From: Geobacter sp.
Lineage (GTDB): Bacteria > Desulfobacterota > Desulfuromonadia > Geobacterales > Geobacteraceae
Direction of reading: 5' to 3'
Length of the DNA stretch: 38,258 nt
Assembly: GCA_027356255.1 (NCBI GenBank)
Contig: DAIEGL010000253.1
Span: forward strand, 1 to 38,258
The notes under the pieces: generated by a model
Databases searched by the model: none
Seen by the model: the letters and a program-made list of their open reading frames with translations, nothing else
Told to the model about the DNA's origin: nothing
Made by a program: the position numbers and the translations under genes
Shown: positions 19,708 through 38,009 of the stretch, piece by piece
Position numbering within the stretch: position 1 is the first letter of the stretch
How the letters are laid out: the number at the start of each line of letters is the position of its first letter

Positions 19708-19708
19708 G
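19620..19708. repeat. Degenerate 7-bp tandem repeats with inverted arms in gspH
   Basis: On the plus strand, TACGAGG, ATCGAGG and TTCGAGG follow one another at 19620-19640. After a 12-base break, eight heptads run from 19653 to 19708: CCTCGTT, CCTCTTT, CCTTTTT, CCTCGAA, CCTTTCT, TCTCGCT, CCTTGTT, CCTCATG. The two blocks are partly complementary: GGTTCGAGG (19632-19640) pairs with CCTCGAACC (19674-19682). Confidence 0.8.
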
Positions 19709-19710
19709 AT

Positions 19711-20154: not shown

Positions 20155-20231
20155 GTGAAACCTCCGTTTAATCTGTTCGTTATCAGAGCACCTTGTGGGT
20201 GCCGTTGGTTGGCCATGTACAGGAGTCATCC

Positions 20232-21443
20232 TTACTTTACCAGTTCGTTCAACTGGAAGATGGGGAGCAACACGGCAATGACCACGAAACCGACGCTGAG
20301 ACCCATTGCCAGGATGAGGAGCGGCTCCAACAGGGCCATCGAGCGGGTAGTGGACGATTCAAACTCCTTTTCAAAGGCTTCTCCGGCCTTGATAAGCATC
20401 TTTTCCAGCTCTCCGCCTTTTTCCCCGACCGCGACCATGTGCACTAACAGCGGCGGAAACAGGGGACTCTTATTGAGCGTTGCCGAGAGGCTTCCCCCTT
20501 GAATCAGCTCCTCGCTTGCCTCCATGAGAATGGTGCGGTATTCACGGTTGACTATCGCTGCGCCGGTGATTTCCATGGCCTTGATAACCGGCACGCCGCT
20601 CATGAGCAAGAGTCCCAGCACCTTGGCGAAGCGGGAAAGGATCAGCCTCTGGAGGAGTGAACCGAAGAGGGGGAGCTTGAGCAGCAAGCTGTCCCTTTTC
20701 CGGCACATGGTTTCGCTGCTCTTGAGTTTTTTCGATGCGTAGCTGATGGCGAAGCCGAGGATGATGAGCGCCCACCACCCTTTACGCACCAGGTTACTGA
20801 CCTTGATGAGGATGATGGTTATCAGAGGGAGGGTGGCCTTACTCTCTTCAAAAACAGTGACGATTTTCGGTACGACAAAGGCGAGGAGAAAGAGCATGAC
20901 GGCGACTCCTACCACTACCATGAGGATCGGGTAGGCGAGCGAGGTGATCACCTTGCTCCTGATCGCAGCCTGATCCTCAAGGAACTCGGCCAGCCGCTCC
21001 AGCACCACTTCCAGCGCCCCGCTCGCCTCGCCGGCGGATACCATGCCGATGTAGCTGTCGCTGAATATCTGCGGCTCGGCGGCCAGCGCCTTGGCCAGGC
21101 TGGTTCCTTCGGCCAGCCTGTCGCGCACCCGGCCGAGCATCTTTCTCAGCTCCCCCGGCCGTTCCTGTTCGTAAAGGGTGCTTATCGCCTCATAGACCGG
21201 GACCGACGAGCCGAGGAGCGTAGCCAGTCTTCTCGTCATGAGGGAGAGTTCCGGGAGGCCGACCTTGCTGCGGAAGAGCTGTATCCCCTTTCTGCTTCCC
21301 CCTTCGTCGGCCGATGCGATTTCCTTAGGGTAGAGGCCGTCTTTCTTCAGGCGGAGCCTCGCCTCCGCAGGGTTCCCCGCATCGATGGTACCGGTGACCT
21401 CTCCACCCCCGGCTTTGTAGGCGCTATAACGGAAGGTCGGCAT
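20232..21443 (-). CDS. gspF: Type II secretion inner-membrane platform protein GspF
   Basis: This 403-residue polytopic protein has two related cytoplasmic T2SSF domains (about residues 70-190 and 270-395), each followed by a membrane helix, plus a middle helix near 220-238. The N-terminal [18 protein letters not shown] pattern and LATLLGSSVPVYEAI are typical. GspF is thought to turn GspE motion into pseudopilin addition. A strong AGGAGG lies just before its ATG, inside the last codons of gspE (20-base overlap). Confidence 0.96.
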   Translation of the reverse strand: MPTFRYSAYKAGGGEVTGTIDAGNPAEARLRLKKDGLYPKEIASADEGGSRKGIQLFRSKVGLPELSLMTRRLATLLGSSVPVYEAISTLYEQERPGELRKMLGRVRDRLAEGTSLAKALAAEPQIFSDSYIGMVSAGEASGALEVVLERLAEFLEDQAAIRSKVITSLAYPILMVVVGVAVMLFLLAFVVPKIVTVFEESKATLPLITIILIKVSNLVRKGWWALIILGFAISYASKKLKSSETMCRKRDSLLLKLPLFGSLLQRLILSRFAKVLGLLLMSGVPVIKAMEITGAAIVNREYRTILMEASEELIQGGSLSATLNKSPLFPPLLVHMVAVGEKGGELEKMLIKAGEAFEKEFESSTTRSMALLEPLLILAMGLSVGFVVIAVLLPIFQLNELVK

Positions 21444-22986
21444 AGTCCTCCTGCGTTACCCGCAGCACCTCCTCGATGGTGGTGATCCCGGCCGCCGCCT
21501 TGGCGAGACCGTCCTCGCGCAGGGTGCGCATCCCCCTGGATATGGCGTACTCCTTGATGACACCGGCAGGGGCCTGTCTTATGATCATGGAGCAGAGCTC
21601 GGAGTCGATGAGGAGGAATTCATAGATGCCGATCCTCCCCGTGGTCCCCAGGTTGAAGCATTTGTCGCAGCCGCGGCCGCGGTATAGCTTGGGCGGCAGC
21701 TTGATGCCGGCGTACTCCCTCTCCGGCGTGTATTCTTCCTTGCAGTGGGGGCAGATCACCCGCACCAGACGCTGGGCCATGACCGCAGAGAGGGAGGATG
21801 CCACCATGAACGGCTCGACCCCCATGTCGATGAGGCGGGTCACGGCGGTGGCGGCATCGTTGGTATGGAGGGTGGAGAGCACCAGGTGGCCGGTGAGACT
21901 TGCCTGCATGGCGATTTCGGCGGTTTCCGCGTCGCGGATCTCCCCCACCATGATGATGTCCGGGTCCTGTCGGAGTATGGATCTTAGCCCCCCGGCAAAG
22001 GTAAGGTCGATCTTCGGGTTCACCTGGATCTGGCCGATCCCCTTCAGCTGGTATTCTATCGGGTCTTCGATGGTGATGATGTTCTTTTCCGGCGTGTTGA
22101 TCCGGTTGAGGGCCGCGTAGAGGGTGGTCGTCTTGCCGCTGCCGGTCGGTCCGGTGACGAGGATGATGCCGTTCGACCGGGAAAGGAGTCGTTCCATGGC
22201 CGCCTCGTTTTCGGGCGACAGACCGATGTTCGCCAGGGAGATCACCCCCCGCTGCTTGTCCAGGAGCCGGAGCACCACCCGCTCGCCGAAAAATGTGGGG
22301 ATGATGGAGACGCGGATGTCCACGTCCCGGCCTGCGACGATGACCCTGAGCCTTCCGTCCTGGGGGAGGCGCTTCTCGGCGATGTTCAGGCCGGACATGA
22401 TCTTGACCCGGGAGGTGAGCGCTTCCTGCACCACCTTGGGGGGGGTGAGCATCTTGTACAGGAGGCCGTCGATCCTGAAGCGGACCTCCAGCTCCCTTTC
22501 GAACGGCTCGATGTGGATGTCGCTGGCCCGCTCCTTGACCGCCTGGAAGAGGATCGAATTCAGTAGGCGGATCACCGGCGCCTCGTCGGCCAGGTCCAGG
22601 AGGTCCTTCGGCTCGTTGAACTCGGTGGCGATGGCGGAGAGCTCCTCACCCTCCAGTTCCTCGACCACCTCCTGGGCAGAGCCGGACGTCCTTGCATAGA
22701 GGCGGTTGATGGCGTCCAGCACCACCTGCCTCGGCACTGCCACGCCATGGACCGGCATGGCGTATACCCCCGACAGCTCGTCGAGTGCGAGGAGGTTGGC
22801 CGGGTCCCCGGTTGCGGCCACCACTTTGCCGTCCTCCTCCCGGAGCGGCAAAACGAGATTGTTGCGGGCAAACGCCAGCGGCAGGCGCGCAAGGAGCGCT
22901 GTATCCACCAGGCTGTCGTCGATCTCCGTCAGGAAGGGGATGCCGAGGCGTTCGGCTATGCGGGTTATTTCGGCATTGTCGCTCAT
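21424..22986 (-). CDS. gspE: Type II secretion ATPase GspE
   Basis: This 520-residue cytoplasmic ATPase powers pseudopilus assembly. An N-terminal T2SSE domain (about 1-130) precedes the ATPase core. Walker A is GPTGSGKT at 279-286, the Asp box is near [10 protein letters not shown], and Walker B with the catalytic Glu is in [12 protein letters not shown] (Glu349). His box residues are in [13 protein letters not shown]. The zinc-binding tetracysteine (Cys412, Cys415, Cys440, Cys443) distinguishes GspE/PilB-type ATPases from PilT; the gsp operon context makes it GspE. The start overlaps the gspD stop by four bases. Confidence 0.96.
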
Positions 22987-24890
22987 TGGACGGGCTTCAG
23001 TTCCTTGTTGATGTTGAACGGCTTGTCGCTCTTGGTGGCTTCGATGAAGCCGGCCTTCTGGTTGGCCGAGACCTCGGCCATCTCATCGGCGCCCCTGATG
23101 ATCCGCGGGGTGAGGAGAATCAGGAGATTGGTCTTCGTCCGCTCCGTGTGCTTGCTCTTGAAGAGCCAGCCGAGGATCGGTATGTCCCCCAGGAACGGAA
23201 CCTTGGAGACGGTTTCCTGGTCCTGATCCTGGATCAACCCGCCGATGACGACGGTGTCCTTGTCCTTGACCACGACCGAGGTCTTGGCCGATCGCTTGGT
23301 GGTGACCAGGTCGGTGGCCTGTCCCTTGTTGGGGGTCACGGCGGATATCTCCTGGTAGATGTCCAGCTTCACGTATTCACCCTCGCTGATCTGCGGCGTG
23401 ATTTTGAGGGTGATGCCGGTATCCTTTCGTTCCACGTTGGACGTCTGCGCCACACCGGTATTGTATGCGGTGGTCGATGTGACAAACGGCACGTTCTGGC
23501 CGACGAATATCTCCGCCTCCTTGTTGTCCGAGGTGAGGATGGTCGGGGTCGAGAGGACGTTTGTCGCATCGTTGGAGAAGAGCGCCTTGAGGGCAGCCGA
23601 AAAGTTCATCGGAGTATTCAGTGTGGTCGGAAGGGTGATCCCGGCCTGGCTGAAGCCCTGCAAGACATTGAAGAGCTGGCTGAAGGTGTTTTGCGGATCG
23701 TATATTCCGGCAACGCTGGCGTACTTGCCGTCTGAACCGGCACCGAGCAGCCCCCACTGCAAGCCGAGGTCCTTCAGCTTGTCGAGGGAGATCTCGGCGA
23801 TCACCGCCTGGACGAAAACCTGGCGGCGCCGCTTGTCGAGCTTCTGGATCACCTGGAGCAGGTTCTGGTAGTCGTTGGGGGAGGCCATGATGATGAGGGA
23901 GTTGGTCGCCTTGTCCGGCGTGATGGTGATCTTTCCCCCCTCGAAGGGGGATGCCTGGGGCGCGGCCGCAGCCTGCCCCTGGGCTGGCGCGGGTGCGGCG
24001 GATATCCCCTTGACCACGCCGTCCAGGACCTTGGCAACTTCGGTAGCGTCGGCATTTTCCAGGTAGTAGACATTCACCTTGCTGCTGGAAATGGGGGGCA
24101 CCACGTCGATGAGGGCGACGAGCTTTTTCACGTCATCCTTGTCCTTGTCGCTGCCGAAGACGATGAGGGCGTTCAGGCGGGTGTCGGCGACCACGATGTT
24201 GCCCTGGCCGGCAGCGGCGGGCTGACCGGCGGGGCGCTGCACCTTGTCCCGGCTGCCCAGCCACTCGCGGGCCACGTTGGCGGCGTTTTCCGCACCGGCG
24301 TTCTTGAGGTAGATCACTTCGGCCGTGCCGCGCTGCTGCTCGGTATCGATCAAATCGAGGATGCCGAGGATCTTCTGGATGTTGAGGGACGAATCGACCA
24401 CCAGGAGCATGTTGGCGGGGCCGAAGGCGGATATGTAGCCGTCCTTTGAGACCACCGGCTGGAGGAAGCTGACCGCTTCCTGGCCGGATATGTTTTCCAG
24501 GGATATGACCCTGGCCACATAAGACTCGTTCACCGGCCCCCGTTCACCGTTGCTGAGAATCTTCATCCCCGCCTGCTTGGCGGCGGCGGTCGGGACGATC
24601 TTGTAGACCCTGCCCGCCTGGACGACGGTGAATCCCTTCAGCTCAAGGACCGAGGTGAAGACGTTGAACGCATCCTCCGGGGAGAGCTTGGCGGGGGAAA
24701 AGACGGATATCTTCCCCTTGACCCGGTCGTCCATGATGAAGTTCTTGCCGGTCAGGTCGCTGATGAACTTGACCATGGTGGAGATGTCCACGTCGCTGAA
24801 GTTCAGCACAACTCCCTTTGCCAGCGCCACGGAAGGTACCAGTGCGAAGAGCAAGAGGGCGATGATGGTATGCGAGATGCGTCTATTCAA
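22983..24890 (-). CDS. gspD: Type II secretion outer-membrane secretin GspD
   Basis: This 635-residue protein forms the outer-membrane channel. A signal peptide ends near VALA (residue 24). The N0 domain (VVLNFSDVDISTMVKFISDLTGKNF) and repeated N1-N3 domains (about 100-350, with VIYLKNA and VYYLENADATEVAKVL) precede the secretin domain (about 400-600): VLSTPTILTSDNKEAEIFVG, then VVIGGLIQDQD and KVPFLGDIPILGWLF. An Ala/Pro/Gln-rich linker in N3 is near residue 295. No lipobox is present and a pilotin-binding tail is not evident. It starts 111 bases after gspC; that gap holds heptamer repeats. Confidence 0.96.
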   Translation of the reverse strand: MNRRISHTIIALLLFALVPSVALAKGVVLNFSDVDISTMVKFISDLTGKNFIMDDRVKGKISVFSPAKLSPEDAFNVFTSVLELKGFTVVQAGRVYKIVPTAAAKQAGMKILSNGERGPVNESYVARVISLENISGQEAVSFLQPVVSKDGYISAFGPANMLLVVDSSLNIQKILGILDLIDTEQQRGTAEVIYLKNAGAENAANVAREWLGSRDKVQRPAGQPAAAGQGNIVVADTRLNALIVFGSDKDKDDVKKLVALIDVVPPISSSKVNVYYLENADATEVAKVLDGVVKGISAAPAPAQGQAAAAPQASPFEGGKITITPDKATNSLIIMASPNDYQNLLQVIQKLDKRRRQVFVQAVIAEISLDKLKDLGLQWGLLGAGSDGKYASVAGIYDPQNTFSQLFNVLQGFSQAGITLPTTLNTPMNFSAALKALFSNDATNVLSTPTILTSDNKEAEIFVGQNVPFVTSTTAYNTGVAQTSNVERKDTGITLKITPQISEGEYVKLDIYQEISAVTPNKGQATDLVTTKRSAKTSVVVKDKDTVVIGGLIQDQDQETVSKVPFLGDIPILGWLFKSKHTERTKTNLLILLTPRIIRGADEMAEVSANQKAGFIEATKSDKPFNINKELKPVQ

Positions 24891-25001
24891 TGGATGCCTC
24901 CAAAACTGGGAATAGGGAACAAGGATCGGGTAGCACCTTAGCGAAAAGAGATTCTTCCAAGGTTTTTGCTCTTAACCATTCACCATTCACAATTCACCGT
25001 T
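24891..25001. repeat. Two short heptamer repeat arrays between gspC and gspD
   Basis: On the plus strand, GGGAATA, GGGAACA, AGGATCG and GGTAGCA run from 24908 to 24935. ACCATTC, ACCATTC, ACAATTC and ACCGTTT run from 24975 to 25002. Both have a 7-bp period. The second block reaches the gspC stop codon. Confidence 0.7.
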
Positions 25002-25868
25002 TTATCTGATGTCATAATTGAACGTCACCGGCTGACCGTCCCGTATCAGGTCGAGCTTGATCCTGCTCTGTCCCTTGAGCGATGCAAAGGACTGGATTGC
25101 CTTTTCCGGTGAATCGATGGGAAAGTCGTTGATGCTTAAGAGCACGTCGCCGTTTTTGATGCCGATGGTACCGAATATCCCCTGCGGTTTCACTTCCGAG
25201 GCCCTGAACCCCTGTACCTTGCCGTCCTTCATGCTCGGCAGAAGCCGGGCGTCGGTCATTGCCTGGCCGATGTTGTCCAGGGCGGCGTTCAGCGCGCGCT
25301 GGTCGACCACATAGTTTCCGGCCCCCACCTGGGAGGCGAGGCCCGTTGGGCCTGCCGGCGGCTGGGCTGCAGCCTCGGTGGCTACTGCCGTGGGGGTCAG
25401 GATTTTTATTCTTCTCCCCCCCACCAGTATCTCGGCGACCTCTTTTTTCACAGACACCAGCGGTCCCGTATCGAAGACCGTGTCGCCGAGCCGGAAGACC
25501 CGCTCCTCCTTGGTGCTGGTCTTCTGCATCAGGGCGAACGTCTCTCGGAAGGAGCCGACAGCGGTCCCGAGGAGTATCAGATCTCCCTGGGAAACGGCCG
25601 GCGCCGCCTTGTTCGCGGCGGTTGCCTGTATTACCGGCGAGAGCTTTCCCTGGGTGGCCTTGCCGAACAGTCCCTTTTCGAGGATCGGCGCAAATGACAT
25701 GAGGTCATCGGCCGTTGCAACGGAAGGGGGTGCTGCTGCGGCCTTTCCGGCGCTTTTAGGGTAGAGTTTGGCGAGTCTGAAGGAGATCAGGTCGGAGGAA
25801 ATCAAGGCCAGGGCCGAGATGATGAGAAAAGCGAGAAAAATGTTGATCGGCAAGATCCATTTCTGCAT
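25002..25868 (-). CDS. gspC: Type II secretion inner-membrane protein GspC
   Basis: This 288-residue protein links the inner-membrane platform to the GspD secretin and may select substrates. One membrane helix (about 5-28) is followed by the HR domain (about 60-160: LFGKATQG, then LILLGTAVGSFRETFALMQ and a VFDTGPL beta segment). A Pro/Ala linker precedes the PDZ domain (about 185-288), with GASEVKPQGIFG-like and KNGDVLLSINDFPIDSPEKA motifs. It is the first gene of the operon. AAAGGG lies eight bases upstream of the ATG, and the promoter is at 25901-25929. Confidence 0.93.
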   Translation of the reverse strand: MQKWILPINIFLAFLIISALALISSDLISFRLAKLYPKSAGKAAAAPPSVATADDLMSFAPILEKGLFGKATQGKLSPVIQATAANKAAPAVSQGDLILLGTAVGSFRETFALMQKTSTKEERVFRLGDTVFDTGPLVSVKKEVAEILVGGRRIKILTPTAVATEAAAQPPAGPTGLASQVGAGNYVVDQRALNAALDNIGQAMTDARLLPSMKDGKVQGFRASEVKPQGIFGTIGIKNGDVLLSINDFPIDSPEKAIQSFASLKGQSRIKLDLIRDGQPVTFNYDIR

Positions 25869-26052: not shown

Positions 26053-26089
26053 CGCGCCAGAACATGTAATGCTGGTGGAGGTCTTACCC

Positions 26090-26803
26090 ATGAAACCCGT
26101 CGTTGTAGCTGCTTCCACCATCCAGGAGCTTTCCCTTCTCGTTCGGGCCGCCTGCGCCCGCCAAAGGGGCGCCGGGAGCGGGGTCTATGACGCCCGCATC
26201 GGCGGACGGGAGATCATACTTGCCGTGACCGGCATGGGGAAGGTGAATGCCGCGTCGACAATAACGGCGCTTTTGGAGTGTACGCCGCCGCAGCTCCTTG
26301 TAAACACCGGCTGCTGCGGTGCCTATCGCGGGAGCGGCCTCGAACCGGGAGATCTCGCGGTCGCAACCGCCGAAATCTTTGCCGACGAGGGGGTCTTGAC
26401 TCCGGCCGGATGGCGGCCGCTGGAATTCATCGGCATCCCTTTCCTGGAGCACGGCGGGAAACCCCTTTTCAACGAGTTTCCCCTCTCTGCGCAGGCTGCT
26501 GAAAAAGCCGTGCATCTGGCCGACTCCTTGGGCATTTCCATGAGAAGCGGGCGGTTTCTCACCGTTTCCACCTGCAGCGGGACATCGGCCCGGGGGGACG
26601 AGCTGTGCAGGCGGTTCGGCGGCATCTGCGAGAACATGGAAGGCGCCGCCGCGGCCCAGGTTGCCCTGCGATACGGGGTTGATTGCCTGGAAATCCGCGG
26701 GATCAGCAACATGGTGGAAGACCGGGACCTCTCCCGCTGGGACATTCCGCGTGCGGTAGAGGCGGCGCAGAGCTTTGTCCTTAAATATATCGAAGAGCTG
26801 TAG
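26090..26803 (+). CDS. mqnB: Futalosine hydrolase
   Basis: MqnB splits futalosine into hypoxanthine and dehypoxanthine futalosine, a step of the futalosine route to menaquinone. The 237-residue protein is a nucleoside phosphorylase-fold hydrolase: AVTGMGKVNAAST near residue 45, LLVNTGCCGAYRGSGLEPGDLA near 70, and a NMEGAAAAQVALRYGV purine-site motif near 183, with RGISNMVEDRD near 205. An ATG at 26069 is possible, but GGAGG at 26077-26081 fits the ATG at 26090. Menaquinone is the quinone used for anaerobic respiration here. mqnD follows 33 bases later. Confidence 0.93.
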   Translation: MKPVVVAASTIQELSLLVRAACARQRGAGSGVYDARIGGREIILAVTGMGKVNAASTITALLECTPPQLLVNTGCCGAYRGSGLEPGDLAVATAEIFADEGVLTPAGWRPLEFIGIPFLEHGGKPLFNEFPLSAQAAEKAVHLADSLGISMRSGRFLTVSTCSGTSARGDELCRRFGGICENMEGAAAAQVALRYGVDCLEIRGISNMVEDRDLSRWDIPRAVEAAQSFVLKYIEEL

Positions 26804-26836
26804 GAGCGTCTCGCCCCTGCTTCGAGGAACACCGAC

Positions 26837-27670
26837 ATGCGATCATTGACCCTTGGCTATTCTCCCTGCCCAAACGATACATTCATCTTCCATGCCCTGA
26901 CCCACGGGCGGGTCGGCTGCGAAGGCTTTGCGTTCAAGGAGCGGCTGGAGGACGTCGAAACCCTGAACCGTCTGGTGCTCGAAGGGGGGCTGGATATCAG
27001 CAAGATATCCTATCACCTGCTCGGGTTCGTCCGGGAAGAGTACTGCCTGCTCCGTTCGGGCGGCGCCCTCGGACGCGGATGCGGGCCGCTGGTCGTTTCC
27101 GGGAAATACGGGCACATGTCGCAGCTCAAGGGAAAGCGGATCGCCGTGCCGGGAAAGTATACCACGGCAGCCCTGCTGCTGCGCCTCTTCGACCCGTCCC
27201 TGGACAATATCGTCCATATGCCGTTTCACGAAATCATGGCTGCCGTGGCCGGCGGCACGGTGGATGCGGGTGTGATAATCCACGAATCGCGCTTCACCTA
27301 TGCCGGCTTGGGGCTTAAGAAGCTCCTCGACCTGGGGGACTGGTGGGAGGGGGAGACCGGCCACCCGATTCCGCTCGGCGGGATCGTGGCAAAGCGTTCG
27401 CTGGGGGAGGAGGCACTGGCAGCCATCGGCAACGCCCTGCGCGCCAGCGTCGAGTACGCGTTTGCCCATCCGGCCGAGGCGAACGGCTATATCCGCTCCC
27501 ATTCCCAGGAGATGAGCGATGAAGTCTGCTCCGCCCACATAAGACTCTACGTGAACGATTTTTCCCTCGATCTGGGCGCGGAAGGTGAGGCCGCAGTCAA
27601 CGCTCTCCTCTCCCGTGCCGAAGAAAACGCTCTCATCCCGAGATCGCCCTACAGCCTCTTCCTCCCATGA
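26837..27670 (+). CDS. mqnD: 1,4-dihydroxy-6-naphthoate synthase
   Basis: MqnD converts cyclic dehypoxanthine futalosine to 1,4-dihydroxy-6-naphthoate, the late naphthoate-forming step of the futalosine route. The 277-residue protein has the periplasmic-binding-protein-like fold of MqnA/MqnD enzymes. It shows GYSPCPNDTFIFHAL at the N-terminus, the family's most typical motif, and later GKRIAVPGKYTTAALL and DAGVIIHESRFTY, where the His is the proposed catalytic residue. GAGGA lies upstream of the ATG. It is in an operon with mqnB; the other mqn genes must lie elsewhere. Confidence 0.95.
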   Translation: MRSLTLGYSPCPNDTFIFHALTHGRVGCEGFAFKERLEDVETLNRLVLEGGLDISKISYHLLGFVREEYCLLRSGGALGRGCGPLVVSGKYGHMSQLKGKRIAVPGKYTTAALLLRLFDPSLDNIVHMPFHEIMAAVAGGTVDAGVIIHESRFTYAGLGLKKLLDLGDWWEGETGHPIPLGGIVAKRSLGEEALAAIGNALRASVEYAFAHPAEANGYIRSHSQEMSDEVCSAHIRLYVNDFSLDLGAEGEAAVNALLSRAEENALIPRSPYSLFLP

Positions 27671-27816: not shown

Positions 27817-30048
27817 ATGACAGATTCCAAAAAGAAGAGTGCCCTCCGTCCCCCCTGTAAATATTACTTGTTGCTTACTGCCCTTGTCTGGACGCTCCTG
27901 ATGGCCGCCTCGTTCGCCTGGAACCTGCGTCATGAAAAAGAGGAGGCATCGGCCGTGAATGGAGCGGGTGAGCATTTCTCTCCCCCGGGAGGACGTCTGT
28001 TGCCTCTTGCAGCGGGGCATCTCTTTCTGTTTCTGGTGGGGGTGGCCGGTCTCGGCATGGGCGCCGCCAGGATCAGGAAAAGCGAAGACGAACGCAGCCG
28101 GGTTGAGGAGGCGCTCAGACGCGCGCTTGAGCTGTCCGGCATCGTCCTCGACGCCACCAACGACGCCATCTGTATTATCGACGCCGCCAGTTGCAGGATC
28201 GAAGGGGCCAATCATGCCTTTCTCAAGGGGGTCGGCCTGCGCGAAGAAGAAGTGCTGGGGAAAACCTGCCATGCGGTGACGCACGACAGCAGCGAACCTT
28301 GCTCATCCCCCGACCATACCTGCCCCCTGCGGAACACCCTCGGCACCGGGACCGTTTCCATGGCTGAACATCTCCATTACAACCAGGAAGGGGAGAAGCT
28401 TTATGTGGAGGTGATCACCTATCCGATCCTCGACGGGGAGGGACAGGTCAGGCGGGTCCTGCATGTGGCGCGGGACGTATCCGAACGCAGAAGGGCGGAG
28501 GAGCTGTTGCGGGAATCGGAGAACAGTTACCGCGCCATTTTCGAAAATACCGGCGCTGCGATGATCATTGTTGCCGAAGACACGACCATCTCCATGATGA
28601 ACAGGGAGTTTGAAAAGCTGAGCGGCTACTTCAAGGAGGAGGTCGAGGGTATCAGGTGCTGGACCGATTTCGTCTGCCGGGACGAGCTGGACAAAATGAT
28701 CGAATTCCACCGCCTGCGGCGGATTGACCCGGACGCTGCGCCGAAAAGCTATGAATTCCGCTTCATCGCTGCCGGAGGAGGGGTCAAGGAGGTTTCGGCA
28801 AACTGGGCGGTGATACCGGGGACGAACAAGAGCGTCGGTTCGTTGCTGGATATTACGGAGCACAAGCGGATCGAGGCGGCGTTGCGGGAGAGCGAAGCGA
28901 CCCTTGCCATGGCGCAGAAAATCTCCCACCTGGGGAGCTGGGAATGGGATGTGGAGGCGGATGCCTTCAAATGGTCCGATGAGATGTACCGCATCAGCGG
29001 CATGGACCCCCGGGAGTTCACGGTAACTTATGAGGCTTTTCTGGACATGGTGCACCCGCAGGACAAGGAGGCTGTCAACCGTGCCGTGAACGAGGCCCTC
29101 TACGCGCAGAAGGCGTATCGCATCGATTACCGCATCGTGCTGCCTGACGGGAGAATGCGGATGGTGGACGGCCAGGGAGAGGTGGTCTTCGATGAGGCCG
29201 GCAAGCCGATCCGCATGGTCGGCACCACTCAGGATGTCACCTGGCGCAAAGAGGCCGAAGAGGCGCTGAGGAAATCGGAGGAAAAATTTTCCAAGGCGTT
29301 CCATGCGAGCCCGGATTGGATTGCCATAACCCGGGTCGGAGACGGAAACTATCTCGAGGTGAACGACGCCTTCCTCGGCATTACCGGTTACGGCCGGGAG
29401 GAGGTGATCGGCCGCACTTCCAACGAACTGGGAATCTGGGCCAACCAGCAGGACCGGATCACGATGCTGAAGCTCCTCAACGAGCACGGCCTGGTGCGCA
29501 ACCTGGAGGTGGAGTTCAGGATCAAGAGCGGAGAGCCCCGCACCATGCTCTGGTCTGCGGATGTGATGGAATACAACGGTGAAGCCTGCCTGATCACCAT
29601 CGCCCGGGACGTGACCGAGCAGCGCTACTTGGAGAAGGAGCTCTTGAAGAGCCAGGCACAGCTGTACATGAAGCACGAAGAGTTGAAGAACCTCTTCAAC
29701 CAGATGGAAAACATCAGGCGGGAGTGGGAACAGACCCTGGATTGCATCGCCGACATGTTCATCCTTACCGACCACGAAGGGCGGATCAAGCGGTTCAACC
29801 GCGCCGTGGAGGACTTCACCGGCAAGACGCACCGTGACATTGTAGGCAGCGAATGGGGCGCGTTCCTGGCCGAGCATGGGCTCAAGGCCAACATCGACAG
29901 TCCCGGCATGGAAATTTACAACGGTGCCGCGGACAAGTGGCTGGTGTTCAATTCGTACCCGTATGCCGATCCCCTGGGGGGAGGGAGCACGGGGATCGTC
30001 ATAACCATACATGATGCGAGCGGAGCCAGGAAGGCATGCAGGCATTGA
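27817..30048 (+). CDS. Membrane protein with five PAS domains and no kinase
   Basis: This 743-residue protein has two membrane helices (about 17-36 and 61-82). Five PAS/PAC units follow (about 105-230, 235-350, 360-480, 485-610 and 630-735), each ending in the usual linker pattern such as VARDVSERRRAEE, LDITEHKRIEAAL and IARDVTEQRYLEKEL. It stops at [13 protein letters not shown], exactly where the related downstream kinase continues into its histidine kinase core. No HisKA, ATPase, GGDEF, EAL or REC domain is present. PAS 1 carries Cys151, His152, His156, Cys162 and Cys169, a spacing seen in cofactor or metal sites. The stop overlaps the next gene's ATG by 13 bases, so it is likely a sensory partner of that kinase. 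Alternatively it is a kinase that lost its C-terminus. Confidence 0.85.
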   Translation: MTDSKKKSALRPPCKYYLLLTALVWTLLMAASFAWNLRHEKEEASAVNGAGEHFSPPGGRLLPLAAGHLFLFLVGVAGLGMGAARIRKSEDERSRVEEALRRALELSGIVLDATNDAICIIDAASCRIEGANHAFLKGVGLREEEVLGKTCHAVTHDSSEPCSSPDHTCPLRNTLGTGTVSMAEHLHYNQEGEKLYVEVITYPILDGEGQVRRVLHVARDVSERRRAEELLRESENSYRAIFENTGAAMIIVAEDTTISMMNREFEKLSGYFKEEVEGIRCWTDFVCRDELDKMIEFHRLRRIDPDAAPKSYEFRFIAAGGGVKEVSANWAVIPGTNKSVGSLLDITEHKRIEAALRESEATLAMAQKISHLGSWEWDVEADAFKWSDEMYRISGMDPREFTVTYEAFLDMVHPQDKEAVNRAVNEALYAQKAYRIDYRIVLPDGRMRMVDGQGEVVFDEAGKPIRMVGTTQDVTWRKEAEEALRKSEEKFSKAFHASPDWIAITRVGDGNYLEVNDAFLGITGYGREEVIGRTSNELGIWANQQDRITMLKLLNEHGLVRNLEVEFRIKSGEPRTMLWSADVMEYNGEACLITIARDVTEQRYLEKELLKSQAQLYMKHEELKNLFNQMENIRREWEQTLDCIADMFILTDHEGRIKRFNRAVEDFTGKTHRDIVGSEWGAFLAEHGLKANIDSPGMEIYNGAADKWLVFNSYPYADPLGGGSTGIVITIHDASGARKACRH

Positions 30049-33000
30049 GTATCAAATCCAGGATGACTTTGGCCGTTTCCGTGCTGGTGGCGGTTGTGCT
30101 CTCCGTATCAGGCTTTATTGCCCTCTCCTATTTTCGCAGCGAGCTCAAGGAAACCATATCCGGCCAGCAGCTCACCCTCATCACTTCCGTTGCCGAAAAT
30201 CTGGACCACAGCCTCGCCCAGTCCCGTGATGAACTCGCAGAAATCGCGAAGAGCGTCACCCCGGATATGCTCGCGGATGGAGAGAGGTCCCAGCGCTTTC
30301 TCGACGGCCGGGGGAAGAACGAAATCAGGTTCGACAACGGCATCTTCCTCCTGTCCCGGGAAGGGAGGCTGATTGCGGAGACCCCATTCCTCCCCGGCTG
30401 GAGGGGGCGCGACTTCTCGTTCCGCGCCTACTTCAAAAAGGTTGCGGAAACCGGCAGGCCCTGCATCTCCGATCCTTATGTCTCCAGCCAGGCGCACCGG
30501 CACCCGGCCATCATGTTTGCGGCCCCCGTTCTCGACGCCAAGGGGGAACTCGCGGCGGTCCTGGCCGGGAGCGTCGATCTGCAGAACGACAATTTTCTCG
30601 GAAAACTCTCCCGGCTCAAGGTAGGGCGGAGCGGTTACCTCTCCCTCTATACCGCCGACGGGGTCGTCATTGCCCATCCCGACCGGAGCCGGACCATGAA
30701 TAAGGTCGCCCCCTCCGGGAAAGGCGCCCTCCTCGGCTCGGCGCTGGCAGGCTTCGAAGGGAGCGATGAAAGGGTGAACGGATCTGGGGTGCCGGTCCTC
30801 TCGTCGTTCAAGCACCTGCGGGAGGTGGACTGGGTGCTGGCCGCCAACTATCCGCAGTCGGAGGCGTATGCCGCCATCTACAGGGCGCAGCGGTACTTCT
30901 GCTGGGCGCTCGGCGCAATGGTGGTCCTCTCCGTGTTCCCCGCCTGGTTCCTGATGCAGCGGATGACCGCCCCTCTCCTGCTCTTCACCAGGCATGTGCG
31001 GGAATTGCCCGGCAGGGAAGGGGATGAAAGGTTTGCTGCGGTCACTGCCGGGGGGGAGATCGGCGCCCTTGCCGAGACGTTCAACACCATGGTCCGGGAG
31101 TTGGACAGGAAACAGGCGGCGTTGCGGGAGAGTGCGGAGCTTTACCGGATCGTCGCCCGGTTCGCCTCCGAACTGGCCGTATGGCGCGCCCCGGACAATT
31201 CCATCCGCTACATCTCCGAAAACTGCCTGGAGCTTACCGGCTATGGGGAGGAGGCGTTTTATGCCTCCCCGGAGCTGATCGATGAAATCGTCCATCCGGA
31301 GGACCGGCGGCGCTGGCTGCGCCACACGCTGGACAGGGACGAGAACGGGGTTACCCGGCCGCTCGATATCCGCATCGTCACCAGGGGTGGGGAGGTGCGC
31401 TGGCTGAACCATACCTGCCACACTATCTACGGTTCAGACGGCGAGTTTTTCGGGGTCCGCGGCAGTTTCAGGGACATCACCCCGCGCAAACGGCTGGAGA
31501 AAGAGCTCCAGACGCAGAAGGAATTTGCCGAAAGCCTGCTGGAAAACGCCACCGTTCCCATTTGCGTGGTTGACGCCGGGCACCGTGTCATAAGCTGGAA
31601 CAGGGCGTGCGAAGAGCTCACCGGGGTGGAGCGGCCGGAGGTCGTAGGCTCCGACCTCCTCTGGAAAGCCTTCTACGACCATGAGCGGCCGACGCTGGCG
31701 GACATACTGATCGACGGCAACTGCGAAAAACTCGCCCAATATTACGAAGTCTACTCGAAGTCCCCCTTCCTCGCCGAGGGTATGCAGGCCGAGGGGTGGT
31801 TTCCCGGCCTCAAGGGGGTGGACCGATACCTCTGCTTTGACGCCGCCCCCATTCGCAACGGGAAGGGGGAGCTGGTCGCGGTCATAGAGACGCTGCACGA
31901 CATCACTCCGCGTAAGAAGGCGGAGCGGGAGCTCAGCAAGAGCCGGGCCGAACTCATGGTCAGGCACGAACAGCTGTCGAACCTCTTCTCCCAGGTGGAG
32001 ATCGCCAAGAAGGAATGGGAGCGGACCCTCGACTGCACCGGCGAACTGGTCATGCTCGTCAACAACTCCGGGCGGATCAGGAGGTGCAACCGTGCGGTCG
32101 GGGAGCTCGCGGGGATCTCCTACGACCGGATCATCGGCGCGGACTGGCAGGAGATCGTCCTGACCCCGGAGATGGACGCCGGCCGCTTTAACGGCCAGAG
32201 CGGAGAACTATATCACCGTGCGACCGGACGCTGGTATTATCTCGCCTCGTATCCCTTCAAGGAGGGGGACGCGCTGGAGGTCTCCGGGGCCGTAGTGACC
32301 CTCCACGATACCACGGAGGTGAAACGGGTCTCGGCCGCCCTGGAAAATGCCTATGCCGAGCTGAAGGCGACCCACGCCCAGATGCTGCAGAAGGAGAAAA
32401 TGGCCTCCATCGGCCAGCTTGCCGCCGGCGTGGCCCACGAGATCAACAACCCGATCGGCTTTGTCTCCTGCAACCTGGGGACGCTCGACAAATATGTGGG
32501 AAGGATGAAGGAGTTCATCTCCCTCCTGGAAGAAAAAATCGCCCCGATCGCCCTTCCCGAGGTGCTGTCCGAGCTGGCAGGGAAAAAGAAGGGTCTCAAG
32601 CTGGAGTACGTGATGGGAGATGCGGTGGCGCTCATCCGGGAATCGCTCGAAGGTTCCGAACGGGTGCGCAAGATCGTAGCTGACCTGAAGAGCTTCTCCC
32701 GTTTGGACGAGGCGGAGCACAAGCAGGCGAACATCAACGAATGCCTGGAGAGCACCATCAACATAGTCTGGAACGAGATCAAATACAAGGCGACCCTGAA
32801 GCGGGAATTCGGCGAACTCCCCCAGCTGAAATGCCATCCGCAGCAGCTGAACCAGGTATTCATGAATCTTCTTGTCAACGCCGCCTATGCCATCGAGAAG
32901 CAGGGGGAGATAACCGTCAGGAGCCGGTACGCGGACGGTTCGATCCTTGTCTCCATATCCGACACCGGCTGCGGCATCCCCGCGGAGATCAGGGACAGGA

Positions 33001-33161
33001 TCTTCGAGCCGTTCTTCACCACCAAGGAGGTGGGGAAGGGGACCGGCCTGGGGCTCTCCATCTCCTACGACATCGTCAAGAAGCATGGCGGCGAGATAAG
33101 CGTGGCGAGCGAGGTGGGGGAAGGGGCCACCTTCACGGTCCGGTTGCCGGTCGTGGAATGA
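30036..33161 (+). CDS. dCache-HAMP-PAS hybrid-free sensor histidine kinase
   Basis: This 1041-residue inner-membrane kinase has a membrane helix (about 10-30), a periplasmic double-Cache sensor (about 35-280; [20 protein letters not shown] and [10 protein letters not shown] are typical), a second helix (about 285-308), and a HAMP segment (about 308-362). Three PAS domains (about 370-485, 500-625 and 645-765) follow. The phospho-accepting His801 lies in [14 protein letters not shown]. The ATPase domain has an N box ([14 protein letters not shown]), G1 (SDTGCGIP), an F box ([19 protein letters not shown]) and G2. No receiver domain is attached. The ligand is unknown; dCache domains often bind amino acids, amines or organic acids. 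It is coupled to the PAS-only gene upstream. Confidence 0.94.
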
Positions 33162-33349
33162 ACAAATAACAACCCAAAGATGCACGCCTCCTGATATCGG
33201 AAATCCGCTTTCCCTGCCATTACCCCCCCCACTGAATCAGCCCCGTAAACATCACCTGAAACTCAAGCTTTGCCCCCCGAAACCGATAAGAAGTTCATCA
33301 AATGGGTGACGTCAGTCGGCCACGGAAGGAATAGGGGAGCTTTGTTTTT
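33162..33349. other. Gap between the two kinase genes
   Basis: No gene, terminator or convincing promoter was seen. A long C-run lies near 33226. The downstream gene may be read from the upstream transcript or from an unrecognised promoter. Confidence 0.4.
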
Positions 33350-34777
33350 ATGAACAATACCGCATCAATGGAAACTGCCACCAACATGGCGACTGCCAAC
33401 CAAATATCCCCCTTGCGCATGTTCACCTCTCTGCTGGTCGTTCTCTTCATGGCCGAAGCGATAATCATGTTCACGCTGCCGTTGTTATTTTCCGCCGATG
33501 TCGATCCGGTGGAAAACCTCGCCGACTCCGTCGTTCTCGTTATCCTCAGTGCCCCGTTTATCTGGTCCCTGATCGTCCGTCCACTGCGTAACGCCGTGAC
33601 GGCGGAGGCAACCTGGGCCAACGCGTTGCTGGAGCATGTTATTGACGGCGTGGTCATTTTCGACGACCGGGGGGTCATAATCTCGTGCAATCCCGCTACC
33701 GAGGCCATGTTCGGTCATACCACCAGGGAAGTAATCGGGCAGCGTCTGGATTCACTGTTGCATGCATCAAGCGACAGCGGTGGACATGGCCTGCATCTCC
33801 TTGGGATGTCCGATTCCCCATACGATATTTGCCGTATCAGCCATGACGTGCTCGGCCGTCGCAAAGATGGCAGCGTCTTTCACATGGATCTTTCCGTGAG
33901 CAAGGTCAATCTGGCGGGTAAGGTCTCGTTCATCGGGATCATTCGGGACATCACCGAACGGAAGCGGATCGAGCTGGAGCTGACGGAGACCCAGGCGAAG
34001 TTTCTCCAGCAGGAAAAGATGGCGTCCATCGGCCAGCTCGCCGCGGGGGTGGCCCACGAGATCAACAACCCCATCGGCTTCATCTCCAGCAATCTGGGCA
34101 CCCTGGGGAAATACGCGACAAGGTTTACCGGCTTCATAAAAGCCCAGGCCGATGTCCTTTCCGGGATGAAATCGGCGGAGGAGCTGGCGGAAGAGAGAAA
34201 ACGGCTGAAGATAGACCACATCCTGGCCGATGTGGAGGGGTTGATCCGGGAGTCCCTGGACGGCGCAGACCGGGTGAGAAAGATCGTGGCCGATCTGAAG
34301 AGCTTTTCGCGGGTGGATGAAGCGGAATGCAAATATGCCGACCTCAACGAATGCCTGGCGAGCACCATCAACATAGTCTGGAACGAGCTGAAGTACAAGG
34401 CAGAGCTGGTCCGGGATTTCGGGGAGATCCCGCAGGTGAAATGCTATCCCCAGCAGCTGAACCAGGTCTTCATGAACCTTTTGGTCAACGCCGCCCATGC
34501 CATCGACCGGCACGGGGAGATCACGGTCAGGAGCTGGGGGACGCCTGGAAGCGTATGCGTCTCGGTGAGCGATACCGGCTGCGGCATCCCCAAGGAGCAG
34601 ATAAACAGGATTTTCGAGCCGTTCTTCACCACCAAGGAGGTGGGGAAGGGGACCGGCCTGGGGCTTTCCATCTCCTATGACATTGTGAAAAAGCATAACG
34701 GCGAGATCTCGGTCCAGAGCGAGGTGGGAAAGGGGACAACCTTCACCGTGACCATACCGGCCGTTTTGGGGGGGTAG
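33350..34777 (+). CDS. PAS-domain sensor histidine kinase
   Basis: This 475-residue kinase has two membrane helices (about 22-44 and 60-78) with a very short loop, so it probably senses inside the membrane or cytoplasm. A PAS domain (about 90-205, ending [18 protein letters not shown]) is followed by a HisKA domain with His236 and an ATPase domain with N, G1, F and G2 boxes. The core is strikingly similar to that of the preceding kinase; the F box region is identical over 53 bases (33003-33055 and 34613-34665). The stop lies one base before the GTG of the REC-PAS gene, so the kinase and regulator are a pair. An ATG at 33368 is a second possible start. Confidence 0.93.
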
Positions 34778-34778
34778 C

Positions 34779-35621
34779 GTGGAGCAGGTAAGAATCCTCT
34801 GCGTCGATGACGAGGTGAACGTCCTGAAGGCGGTGGAGCGCGTCTTCCTCGATGAGGAGTACGAGATCCTGAGCGCGGAGTCGGCCGCCGCCGGTCTCGA
34901 CGTGCTGGAAAAGAGCGGGCCGGTGCAGATAGTCATCTCCGACTACCGCATGCCGGGGATGAACGGGGTCGATTTCCTGAGCGAGGTCTGCCGCAGATGG
35001 CCGGAAACGGTGCGGATCGTCCTTTCCGGCTATGCGGATACGTCGGCGGTTGTCTCAGCCATCAACGAGGGGCAGATCTACAAGTTCATCCCGAAGCCGT
35101 GGAACGACGACGAGTTGAAGGTGACCATCGCCAACTCCATTGAACGTTATTTCCTCAGGCAGAAGAATTCCCAGCTCATGGCCGAGCTGAAGGGGAAAAA
35201 CGAGGAGCTGGAAAGGATCAACAGCGACCTGGAGCAGCGCATCGTCGAGAAGAGCGGCCGGGCCATGTTCCAGTACAAGATACTGACCCTTTCCCAGAAC
35301 ATCCTCGACGCGCTCCCCGTGGGGGTAATCGGCATCGACACCGACGGCGTCATCGTCCAGTGCAATCGGATGGCAACGGACCTGCTCAACTGCAACGACA
35401 ACGAGTGCCTGGCGGCTCCGTGCCGGGACCGGCTTCCTCCCGAACTCCACGCCTTCGTGAAGGGGATCGACGGTTGCCGGTACGTGCGCAGCCGCATCTC
35501 CCTGAACGGCAGAGAACTGCTGGCAACGGGGGGGTACATGAAATGCCGGGAACAGGAAGGGATAATCCTGGTGCTTGACCGCTACGAGTCGGACATGAAG
35601 GGGAAAAAGAGCGATGATTGA
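34779..35621 (+). CDS. REC-PAS response regulator
   Basis: This 280-residue cytoplasmic protein starts with GTG, one base after the previous stop. The receiver domain (about 1-125) has the acidic pair Asp10-Asp11, phospho-acceptor Asp55 (VISDYRMPGMNG), Ser83 and Lys106 in a KPW motif typical of RpfG-type receivers. A coiled coil (about 128-165) precedes a PAS domain (about 170-275, ILDALPVGVIGIDTDGVIVQCNRMA). No DNA-binding or enzyme domain is present, so its output is likely protein interaction, perhaps with the next gene's product. It overlaps that gene by eight bases. Confidence 0.9.
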   Translation: MEQVRILCVDDEVNVLKAVERVFLDEEYEILSAESAAAGLDVLEKSGPVQIVISDYRMPGMNGVDFLSEVCRRWPETVRIVLSGYADTSAVVSAINEGQIYKFIPKPWNDDELKVTIANSIERYFLRQKNSQLMAELKGKNEELERINSDLEQRIVEKSGRAMFQYKILTLSQNILDALPVGVIGIDTDGVIVQCNRMATDLLNCNDNECLAAPCRDRLPPELHAFVKGIDGCRYVRSRISLNGRELLATGGYMKCREQEGIILVLDRYESDMKGKKSDD

Positions 35622-36933
35622 GAACAGCACAGAAGACGCATTGAAAGTCCTCCTCGTCGACGACGAGATGAACATCCTGCTGGCCCTGAAGCGCCTCCTG
35701 ATGGATGAGGAGTTCGATGTCATTACCGCATCCTCCGGCGCCGAAGCCCTTGAGATGCTCGACCGTGTCGGGGATGTGGCCCTGATAGTCTCGGACCAGC
35801 GCATGCCCGGCCTTTCCGGCGCCGAATTCCTGGAACGGGCGCGAGACGTCGCCCCCGACGCCGCCCGGATGGTCCTGACCGGTTATGCCGATGTGGCGGC
35901 GGCCGTGGACGCCATCAACAAGGGTGGGGCGCATCGTTACCTGAACAAGCCGTGGGATGACGCGGAGCTCTTGAGGTCGGTCCGGGAAGCGGTCGAAAAA
36001 TACCGGCTCGTCCGGGAAAACCGCCGGCTCACGGAGACGGTCAAGCGCCAGAACGCGGAGCTGAAGGACTGGAATGCGAACCTGAAAATCCGGGTGCTGG
36101 AGCAGACCAGCCAGATAAGAAGGAAGAACGAGGAGCTGCATGGCCTGAACAGCAGGCTGAAACGGAACTACGGCGACTCCATCCTGGCGTTTTCCCGGCT
36201 CATCGAACTGCGGGACCGGGAGGTCAGGAACCACTCCGGCAACGTGGCGAAGCTCTCCGCGTTCATGGCCGAAGACATGGGGCTTAAGGCGGAGGAGATC
36301 GAGACGGTCAGGGTCTCTTCCCTCCTCCACGACATCGGGAAGATCGGCGTATCCGATCTCTTGCTGCAAAAAGGCGAGGGGGAGATGACGGAGCGGGAGC
36401 GGGAGGCATACGTCCAGCACACCGTCAGGGGGCAGGCGGCCATTGATTCCATCGAGGATCTGCGCGGTGCGGGGCTCCTCGTCCGCCATCACCACGAATG
36501 CTACGACGGCAGCGGGTTTCCCGACCGGCTGCGGGGGGAGGATATCCCGCTCGGCGCGAGGATCATCGCCATGGCAGACCATGTGGACCGGAGCGTCAGA
36601 AAGCTGTCCGGCGACGACCTGCCGGAGCTCGTCCTGGCCGACGTGGAGCCGTGGTTGGGGAAGAGATTCGATCCCCGCCTCTTCCCCTTCCTGGAGAGGG
36701 GGGTGCGGGAGTGTTACGGGGCGTTATCGTCCGCGGCCGAAATGACGGAGATGGAGTGCCGGCCGGCCGATCTCCTGGCGGGGATGGTCCTGGCCCGCGA
36801 CCTGTGCAGCGGCACCGGCATCCTCCTCCTCGGCAGGGGGGCTGTGCTGGACATCGAAAAGATAGCGGCGCTCAAGCGCTACTACCGCATCGATCCGCCG
36901 GCTGACGGGGTCTTTGTCCTGGTCAGGAGGTAG
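35614..36933 (+). CDS. REC-HD-GYP response regulator, probable c-di-GMP phosphodiesterase
   Basis: This 439-residue RpfG-type protein has a receiver domain (Asp61, Lys112) and a coiled coil (about 135-185). An HD-GYP domain (about 185-355) follows, with His207, the His239-Asp240 pair (LLHDIGKIG) and His292-294, then DGSGFP instead of DGSGYP at 298-303. Metal ligands look complete, so it may hydrolyse c-di-GMP. The usual region after the last motif (DA...RPYR) is shortened and reads DRSVRK, while the later FDP is retained. A C-terminal domain (about 365-439, with LLAGMVLARDL and GAVLDIEKIAALKRYY) is common in Geobacter RpfG-like proteins. The next gene's ribosome binding site lies within its last codons. 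Confidence 0.88.
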   Translation: MIENSTEDALKVLLVDDEMNILLALKRLLMDEEFDVITASSGAEALEMLDRVGDVALIVSDQRMPGLSGAEFLERARDVAPDAARMVLTGYADVAAAVDAINKGGAHRYLNKPWDDAELLRSVREAVEKYRLVRENRRLTETVKRQNAELKDWNANLKIRVLEQTSQIRRKNEELHGLNSRLKRNYGDSILAFSRLIELRDREVRNHSGNVAKLSAFMAEDMGLKAEEIETVRVSSLLHDIGKIGVSDLLLQKGEGEMTEREREAYVQHTVRGQAAIDSIEDLRGAGLLVRHHHECYDGSGFPDRLRGEDIPLGARIIAMADHVDRSVRKLSGDDLPELVLADVEPWLGKRFDPRLFPFLERGVRECYGALSSAAEMTEMECRPADLLAGMVLARDLCSGTGILLLGRGAVLDIEKIAALKRYYRIDPPADGVFVLVRR

Positions 36934-36937
36934 CGCT

Positions 36938-37495
36938 TTGATCGAGTACGACGAAACCGCCCGGCGGATGGTGCTGAAACTGGTCTACTACGGACCGGCG
37001 CTCTCCGGCAAGACCACAAATCTCTTGCGCCTGCACGACATGCTGGCGCAGGAGGGGCGGGGTGAGCTTATGGTGCTGGACACTACGGATGACCGTACCA
37101 TCTTCTTCGACCTCCTCCCCTTTTTCATCGTCGCCCCCAGCGGCCTGAAGATAAAGGTGAAGGTCCATACCGTTCCCGGCCAGGTAAAGCGTGACGCAAT
37201 GAGAAAGGCGGTGCTGCAAAGGGCCGACGGCGTGGTGTTCGTCGCCGATTCCCAGCTCGATGAATCGGCCAACAACTTCGCCAGCTTCGACAATCTGGAG
37301 AAAAACCTGGCGATCGTCGGCCTGGACATCGATAAGCTCCCGCTGGTGGTGCAGTTCAACAAGCGGGACCTGCCGGGGATCGTTTGCGAAGCGGATGTCC
37401 GGCGCCGCTGGGGGCCGACCGGAGTTCCGGTGTTTATGGCATCCGCCCTCAAGGGGTGGGGGTCGTGGAAACATTCGCCCGGCTGGCCGAGCTGA
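36938..37495 (+). CDS. MglA-like small GTPase, frameshifted near the end
   Basis: This open frame of 185 residues begins at a TTG with AGGAGG (36925-36930) seven bases upstream. It matches MglA-type Ras-like GTPases that control cell polarity and motility. P-loop GPALSGKT spans residues 19-26, the switch I Thr is in DDRTIFFDLLP, switch II reads HTVPGQ instead of DXXG (a known MglA trait), NKRD spans 141-144 and ASALKG 168-173. After Gly173 the frame becomes WGSWKHSPGWPS and stops. A different frame continues the family sequence (VGVVETFARLAEL) to 37593. A single G missing from the run at 37453-37456 explains this; restored length is 218 residues. It could be a mutation, a sequencing error or recoding. 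Confidence 0.85.
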   Translation: MIEYDETARRMVLKLVYYGPALSGKTTNLLRLHDMLAQEGRGELMVLDTTDDRTIFFDLLPFFIVAPSGLKIKVKVHTVPGQVKRDAMRKAVLQRADGVVFVADSQLDESANNFASFDNLEKNLAIVGLDIDKLPLVVQFNKRDLPGIVCEADVRRRWGPTGVPVFMASALKGWGSWKHSPGWPS

Positions 37496-37593
37496 CTTAC
37501 GACAATCTCGACCGGAGATACCGGCTCTTTGAGGAACACGGGCTCGGGCGCGCCGATTTCGTCGGCAGGCTGACGGTCAGGAGGGAAGGATGA
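37456..37593 (+). pseudogene. Displaced C-terminal part of the MglA-like GTPase
   Basis: This frame encodes 45 residues that complete the GTPase C-terminal helix (VETFARLAELTYDNLDRRY, then EHGLGRADFVGRLTVRREG). Its stop overlaps the next gene's ATG in an ATGA, as expected if it is the true end of the GTPase gene. Confidence 0.8.
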
Positions 37594-38009
37594 CCGACCA
37601 GGGGATATCCTATGTGGTGGGTGAGGAAAAGTGTCTGACCGACATCGTCGGTGACGCCGATGTGCTCCCCCTTCTCAGGGGGGCCGTCCGTGCAGGGGTT
37701 GCCGAAGCTTCCGTCATCGATGCGGAAGGCGCCCTGTTGTGGGGGGAACGGAACCCCGCCGCCCGCGGCGCGATCTCCGAGAGCATCCCGATCCGCCTCG
37801 AAGGGGAAGTGGTGGGGAGCCTGGTCGTCACGGGGGAGAGGGGTGAGGATTACCTGAAGGGGATCGCCGGACTCCTGTCCGACGCCCTGAACAACATCAT
37901 CGCTACGAGCCTGAAGCGGATGCTCACCACCGAGATCCATACCGGCGTGGTCATCCCCGTCGATGAATTGGCTTCTCTGGTCGCCGAGTGTGAGCGGGAG
38001 TACCGCTGA
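37590..38009 (+). CDS. Small GTPase-linked protein, unknown (roadblock- or GAF-like)
   Basis: This 139-residue cytoplasmic protein starts with AGGAGG at 37578-37583 and an ATGA overlap with the GTPase tail. Its middle (about 25-85) has a helix followed by ASVIDAEGALLWG and SIPIRLEGEVVGSLVV strands, the alternation seen in roadblock/LC7 or GAF-like sensor folds. A long helix follows (LKGIAGLLSDALNNIIATSLKR). MglA GTPases are often encoded beside an MglB roadblock GAP, so a regulator of the GTPase is the simplest idea, but I cannot assign the family with certainty. It is the last gene of the cassette. Confidence 0.7.
   Translation: MTDQGISYVVGEEKCLTDIVGDADVLPLLRGAVRAGVAEASVIDAEGALLWGERNPAARGAISESIPIRLEGEVVGSLVVTGERGEDYLKGIAGLLSDALNNIIATSLKRMLTTEIHTGVVIPVDELASLVAECEREYR

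Follow-up and report, generated by a model that had tools for sequence, protein, structure and literature searches.

The gene run at positions 27817-38009 of the analysed Geobacter sp. DNA (genome G000; the window, 38,258 nucleotides in all) is best explained overall, with moderate confidence, as a decayed copy of a widespread GTPase-kinase-ATPase operon in which kinases would control a filament motor. As observed in relatives, the intact core consists of an orphan MglA-family GTPase, a soluble histidine kinase with a GAF/roadblock-like N-terminal domain, and a receiver-carrying PilB/GspE-type ATPase. The intact module further has a REC-PAS protein, either one REC-HD-GYP protein or two, a small receiver protein, and a variable set of sensor kinases. 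Judged by its sequence, the window copy is probably defective: the GTPase is frameshifted, and the kinase core and the ATPase are lost.

The gene run and its interrupted GTPase

The genes named in the initial annotation are present between 27817 and 38009, all on one strand, with domains assigned via Pfam. The features are as follows.

27817-30048, + strand: multi-PAS sensor with N-terminal hydrophobic segments and no kinase domain (Pfam PAS families, no HisKA/HATPase)
30036-33161, + strand: dCache_1-HAMP-PAS-HisKA-HATPase histidine kinase (Pfam)
33350-34777, + strand: PAS-HisKA-HATPase histidine kinase (Pfam; best NCBIfam match T2SS_HK, under its cut-off)
34779-35621, + strand: REC-PAS response regulator, a conserved module member (Pfam; equal position in most intact loci)
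35614-36933, + strand: REC-HD-GYP response regulator of the NosR family with HD and GxGFP motifs (Pfam; NCBIfam NF053512, 455.6 bits against a cut-off of 400)
36938-37495, + strand: orphan MglA-family GTPase, frame interrupted near 37455 (68-86% identity to orthologues, MglA profile match, G motifs)
37459-37593, + strand: C-terminal part of the GTPase, displaced to the +1 frame, GVVETFARL... (63% identity to the L033 tail, low dN/dS)
37590-37952, + strand: N-domain of the soluble histidine kinase of the module, without the catalytic half (57% identity to L033 kinase residues 4-125, open-frame numbering)
37953-38009, + strand: C-terminal end of the module's small receiver protein, joined on in frame, PVDELASLVAECEREYR (matches ..MQEDELAQIIEECNREYR* of L033:17028-17609)
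37940-37960, no strand: inferred deletion junction with about 3.7 kb absent (comparison with the L033/L138 order)

Seven genes can be counted in this run (multi-PAS sensor, dCache kinase, PAS kinase, REC-PAS, REC-HD-GYP, GTPase, and the 139-aa open reading frame). The eight units of the initial annotation are reached only when the shifted GTPase tail (37384-37593) is counted. Its description of mostly overlapping genes, by 1-13 bases, applies to part of the run: overlaps of 13 bp (30036/30048) and 8 bp (35614/35621) are present, but 188 bp separate two of the genes (33162-33349), and there is no overlap at 34777/34779. The PAS and kinase genes upstream of the module differ from relative to relative among the loci compared. 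In different phyla, the sensor kinases of the module have NCBIfam NF038348 (T2SS_HK) as the best match, all under the cut-off. Both motifs of the HD-GYP phosphodiesterase test, LLHDIGK and HHHECYDGSGFP, are found in the window REC-HD-GYP sequence, and the usual DALT..RPYR stretch is absent from it. Elsewhere in the window, a CHASE2-adenylate/guanylate cyclase protein, a further cyclic-nucleotide signalling gene, is encoded at 8022-10112 (+).

The GTPase start that fits the family is a TTG at 36938, past the stop of the HD-GYP gene. The open reading frame stops early at 37495, and homology in that frame is lost after about 37453. Family members have SAL.G.GVVETF as the G5 region, with about 45 further residues after it; in the window those residues are located in the +1 frame, to 37593, where the displaced tail overlaps the following start codon by ATGA, as in tightly packed operons. 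Because the conserved GTPase C-terminus resumes in the +1 frame, the tract GGGGTGGGGG, also given as GGGGTGGGGGTC, has one G too few; this G run lies near 37455. When compared with L033, dN/dS was about 0.09 both before and after the shift. Coding constraint is thus alike on both sides, which indicates either a recent shift or an error of sequencing. The window GTPase also departs from its family at two near-invariant positions, H85R and T88M.

The family of the GTPase was assigned from its profile and motifs. The module GTPase profile was searched against PDB via hmmsearch, and the MglA structures 6h17, 5ymx, 6hjh, and 3t12 were matched at 1e-55 to 1e-51. The motifs GPALSGKTTN, TVPGQ, NKRD, SA, and R53-T54 (G1, G3, G4, G5, and the Arg beside the G2 Thr) are invariant or near-invariant in the GTPase alignment, the window included. 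An Arg adjoining the G2 Thr is the mark of Group 1 MglA (PMC4316618). By its motifs, the module GTPase is an orphan MglA-family member of Group 1-like type. No match to MglB was found in 149 cassette loci with the genome's own MglB as query, and the paralogous mglA of the same genomes adjoins mglB, unlike the module GTPase. The canonical MglA-MglB pairs of the same genomes (L002, L022-L032) have a GTPase of the same family, with 46-49% identity to the module GTPase, but they stand in their own locus beside MglB. The module GTPases form a single clade (81/81, support 0.95) apart from these MglB-coupled MglA proteins. A third MglA-like GTPase type, represented by L003 (G000:C130:10252-10755) and its counterparts with open frames of about 290-390 aa, is present besides MglA proper in most genomes of the family.

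The window GTPase (36938-37453) has 86% identity to the GTPase of another genus (G047) and about 75% to that of its own assigned genus. The assigned genus includes Geotalea toluenoxydans, and L138 is the sister of the window GTPase in the tree. Either the module was transferred or the genus assignment is debatable.

The 139-aa open reading frame and the missing 3.7 kb

The 139-aa open reading frame, listed in the initial annotation as a small putative partner, is chimeric. Residues 1 to about 121 correspond to the N-domain of a histidine kinase of about 430 aa in 18/18 loci first compared, and in relatives this kinase lies directly 3' of the GTPase. The last 18 or so residues match the C-terminus of the receiver protein R190 in L033, where R190 sits about 3.7 kb beyond the kinase N-domain. 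In relatives, the stretch between those flanks encodes the kinase core, then a REC-MshEN-T2SSE ATPase (about 800 aa), and finally the R190 receiver domain. The comparison of sequences identifies the 139-aa open reading frame as the scar of a deletion of about 3.7 kb, an in-frame fusion with no gene family of its own; what was read as a partner is a kinase fragment, the N-domain with a foreign tail. L035 carries an intact cassette at the same site in the order T2SS-mqnB-mqnD-cassette. Because L035 is intact there with the same T2SS and menaquinone neighbours, a deletion in the window lineage is the simplest reading.

The window has a Type II secretion cluster at 14531-25868 (-), with GspC, the GspD secretin, GspE above its cut-off, GspF, GspG, and a further pseudopilin-type gene; then follow two genes at 26069-27670 with matches to the phosphorylase superfamily and to menaquinone biosynthesis. 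This T2SS-to-cassette order recurs only in L035, and a T2SS is adjacent to the module in two genomes in all. The neighbouring gsp cluster was considered as the dedicated output of the module and was rejected, as an adjacency common only to L035 gives no general evidence.

An assembly or sequencing artefact, with the module of the organism intact and one G and about 3.7 kb lost from the contig, is an unlikely account. The metagenome-derived source assembly consists of 301 contigs and is 84.6% complete, a single-G homopolymer indel is a typical error, and the coding constraint continues on either side of the shift. However, the expected flanks are joined cleanly and in frame at the junction, the remaining window genes are long open frames, and near-invariant GTPase residues are changed besides the lost G. 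The missing kinase core and REC-ATPase have no copy on other contigs of the window genome; an unbinned second copy is possible because of the 84.6% completeness.

The N-domain retained in the window keeps the conserved residues E71, G72, E73, K109, and H117. In the model of the kinase N-domain (pLDDT 81), a long helix comes after a small alpha-beta domain. Its structural matches are a tie between GAF (Z 10.1) and MglB/roadblock (Z 9.5-9.6), with all Foldseek E-values above 1e-3. A roadblock assignment by sequence was tried and rejected, with an hhalign probability of 8.8% against the genome's own MglB family, and a Pfam scan of 50 N-domain members gave only stray weak matches. The modelled domain is described as GAF/roadblock-like, as near to GAF as to MglB folds.

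The in-frame fusion and the retained residues could also be read as a new functional small regulator, whose freed N-domain would bind the GTPase or dimerise with other kinases. Such a gain is most improbable, as the fusion is a single case, seen in none of the relatives examined, and the adjoining GTPase is frameshifted.

Conservation and components of the intact module

The class survey covered 277 genomes of the class Desulfuromonadia, with a GTPase threshold of E <= 1e-50 and the N-terminal half of the REC-ATPase as the ATPase query. The GTPase was found in 68/277 genomes, the kinase N-domain in 70/277, and the REC-ATPase in 74/277; these counts are phylogenetically non-independent, and the distribution is patchy over 26 genera. 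All 68 GTPase genomes contain the N-domain and 67 contain the REC-ATPase, the one exception being the window genome. Seven genomes have the ATPase and no GTPase. In four of them (G043, G226, G236, and G262), completeness is low or the locus lies at the end of a contig; the other three carry relatives of about 41% identity (G114, G118, and G127).

The module gene order was compared across 69 loci. The scan of genome contigs gave at least 475 relatives, and the best 80 include Nitrospirota, Deferribacteres, Desulfobacterota, and Gamma- and Betaproteobacteria; the GTPase-kinase-ATPase core recurs in Nitrospirota, Desulfobacterota, and Beta- and Gammaproteobacteria. Within the best-80 set, the REC-ATPase is located within 5.5 kb 3' of the GTPase in 61 of the 64 loci with enough downstream DNA. 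The kinase directly follows the GTPase in 67/77 under a strict gap rule, and most of the others show a kinase frame there in the gene map. The distances of GTPase, kinase, and ATPase correlate at 0.89-0.91 (GTPase-ATPase, 0.90), uncorrected for species phylogeny. A hemerythrin domain forms the N-terminal part of a kinase encoded immediately upstream of the Methylomicrobium sp. wino1 module, on the opposite strand (L196:7560-9383); it suggests an oxygen- or NO-related input there.

Within the class, 26/82 genera have the full cassette, which also occurs in several phyla; the clustering exceeds chance. The initial annotation had stated that genes not kept together in relatives would make the cassette a chance cluster; the genes are kept together across the class. 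The connection that it drew among kinases, receivers, HD-GYP, and the MglA-type GTPase holds good. Its model, in which a working cassette would lead to HD-GYP and a GTPase state and the 139-aa protein would be the partner of the GTPase, is very improbable. The HD-GYP and the receivers are intact, and the N-domain stands beside the GTPase in nearly all relatives. Nevertheless, the GTPase frame is broken, the 139-aa frame consists of part of a kinase plus a foreign tail, and the ATPase output is kept in all GTPase genomes but one. The proposed path to c-di-GMP turnover and GTPase state is incomplete because the listed composition omits the receiver-carrying ATPase and because the window copy is probably defective. 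The pointer towards polar pili or motility goes in the right direction. The main output of intact copies is a PilB/GspE-like ATPase.

The receiver of the REC-ATPase has Asp/Asp/Asp/Thr in 124/124 sequences and Lys in 125/125. The motor motifs, Walker A, Asp box, Walker B, and His box, are present in 125/125 sequences, in agreement with the T2SSE motor test. In the MshEN domain, the first Arg is kept in 4/125, the second Arg is mainly Phe, and the Gln is kept in a minority. The genome's own PilB retains RLG..Q twice, unlike the REC-ATPase. Control of the REC-ATPase by c-di-GMP via MshEN was rejected, as the contact residues are mostly lost. It was also considered whether PilB of the window genome is broken too; the stop codons fell beyond the gene, and PilB is an intact 573-aa frame.

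The L033 REC-ATPase scored 554 bits against the PilB equivalog NCBIfam TIGR02538 (cut-off 675.65) and 536 bits against the GspE equivalog TIGR02533 (cut-off 630.25), below both cut-offs. The window's own T2SS ATPase passes TIGR02533 with 742 bits. By these scores the REC-ATPase lies between PilB and GspE, as a PilB/GspE-like motor ATPase. The L033 form (L033:14338-16770) has extra C-terminal double zinc ribbons, to which the Methylomicrobium form (L196) has no match. It is rather unlikely that the REC-ATPase is a signalling or scaffolding ATPase and that the module regulates something besides pili or secretion. Such a role would be in keeping with an ATPase that is no equivalog of PilB or GspE, with the zinc ribbons of the Desulfuromonadia form, and with T2SS genes near the module in two genomes only; the invariance of all motor motifs in 125 sequences argues against it and for a motor.

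Known systems and the proposed working of the module

No published description of the intact module was found in open-licence papers, to which the search was confined, so that this absence is weak evidence. A 2014 survey of prokaryotic small GTPases reports no conserved neighbourhood of this kind for MglA of Group 1, 4, or 5 (PMC4316618). In Myxococcus xanthus, MglA and SgmX recruit PilB, and in the MglA-SgmX/FrzS-PilB pathway, as in the module, an MglA-type GTPase and response-regulator partners control the recruitment of a PilB-type extension ATPase (PMC11580455). The module differs in being one operon, in an ATPase with its own receiver, and in cassette loci where no MglB was found. The actinobacterial conservons or AGPS (CvnABCD; PMC13343842, PMC4316618) share an operon of a histidine kinase and an MglA-family GTPase. 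Conservons encode CvnB (roadblock) and CvnC as proteins of their own and lack a response regulator, whereas the module has receivers, HD-GYP, a motor ATPase, and a GTPase with Group 1-like motifs; the MglB query found no CvnB-type roadblock gene beside the module GTPase in these loci.

The NosP-NosK-NosR system shares a soluble kinase with an unassigned N-region of about 130 aa that is tuned by a neighbour protein, and this kinase phosphorylates a REC-HD-GYP regulator (PMC12570481). In the module, the neighbour of the kinase is a GTPase, not NosP, and no FIST domain was found in the window genes scanned with Pfam. In B. pseudomallei NosR the motif is degenerate, HG-GTP, whereas the window HD-GYP keeps HD and GxGFP. 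The MshE/PilB ATPases controlled by c-di-GMP through MshEN share the MshEN-T2SSE architecture, and an association of MshEN with REC was noted earlier (PMC5013675). In contrast to them, the module ATPase has lost most Arg and Gln contacts of RLG...Q and has a strictly conserved receiver instead. By analogy, the module resembles a merger of MglA control of PilB, kinase-GTPase conservons, and NosK-NosR c-di-GMP regulation. On the sequence tests applied, it is not to be filed under conservons, PilB, GspE, or MshEN receptors.

In the proposed working of the intact module, sensor kinases and the soluble kinase would phosphorylate the receiver on the motor ATPase, a step that family knowledge makes quite likely. 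Phosphorylation would switch or place the motor, and the motor would drive a type IV pilus-type or type II secretion-type filament; from what is known of the families, this output is also likely, at slightly lower confidence. The GTPase would act as a gate on the kinase N-domain, on the position of the ATPase, or on both. Action through the kinase N-domain is possible but less likely than not. The alternative route would be placement of the ATPase, as MglA does for PilB via SgmX in Myxococcus. The REC-HD-GYP proteins would lower c-di-GMP within the same response. A more specific scheme is tentative and rather doubtful: an MglA-family GTPase would dock on the roadblock-like kinase domain, its GTP state would set the phosphorylation of the motor receiver, and phosphorylation would have replaced c-di-GMP as the motor input, in an undescribed arrangement found across phyla. 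In the window organism, the sensors, REC-PAS, and HD-GYP are retained and the dedicated output arm is lost, barring an error in the contig, which is unlikely.

The window holds a caution in that a tidy cassette with a novel small partner proved to contain a deletion scar. The locus itself is ordinary decay; as a pointer, it leads to a conserved and widespread variant of filament-motor control by a GTPase and two-component proteins that is apparently undescribed. The genes that tie small GTPases, two-component systems, and filament motors to one another are usually scattered, and the module carries them as a unit across several phyla. How kinase signals and Ras-like switches reach a pilus or secretion motor is a long-open question, which is now testable in culturable hosts of the module such as Geotalea toluenoxydans, Geomonas, Methylomicrobium sp. 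wino1, and Desulfatibacillum alkenivorans.
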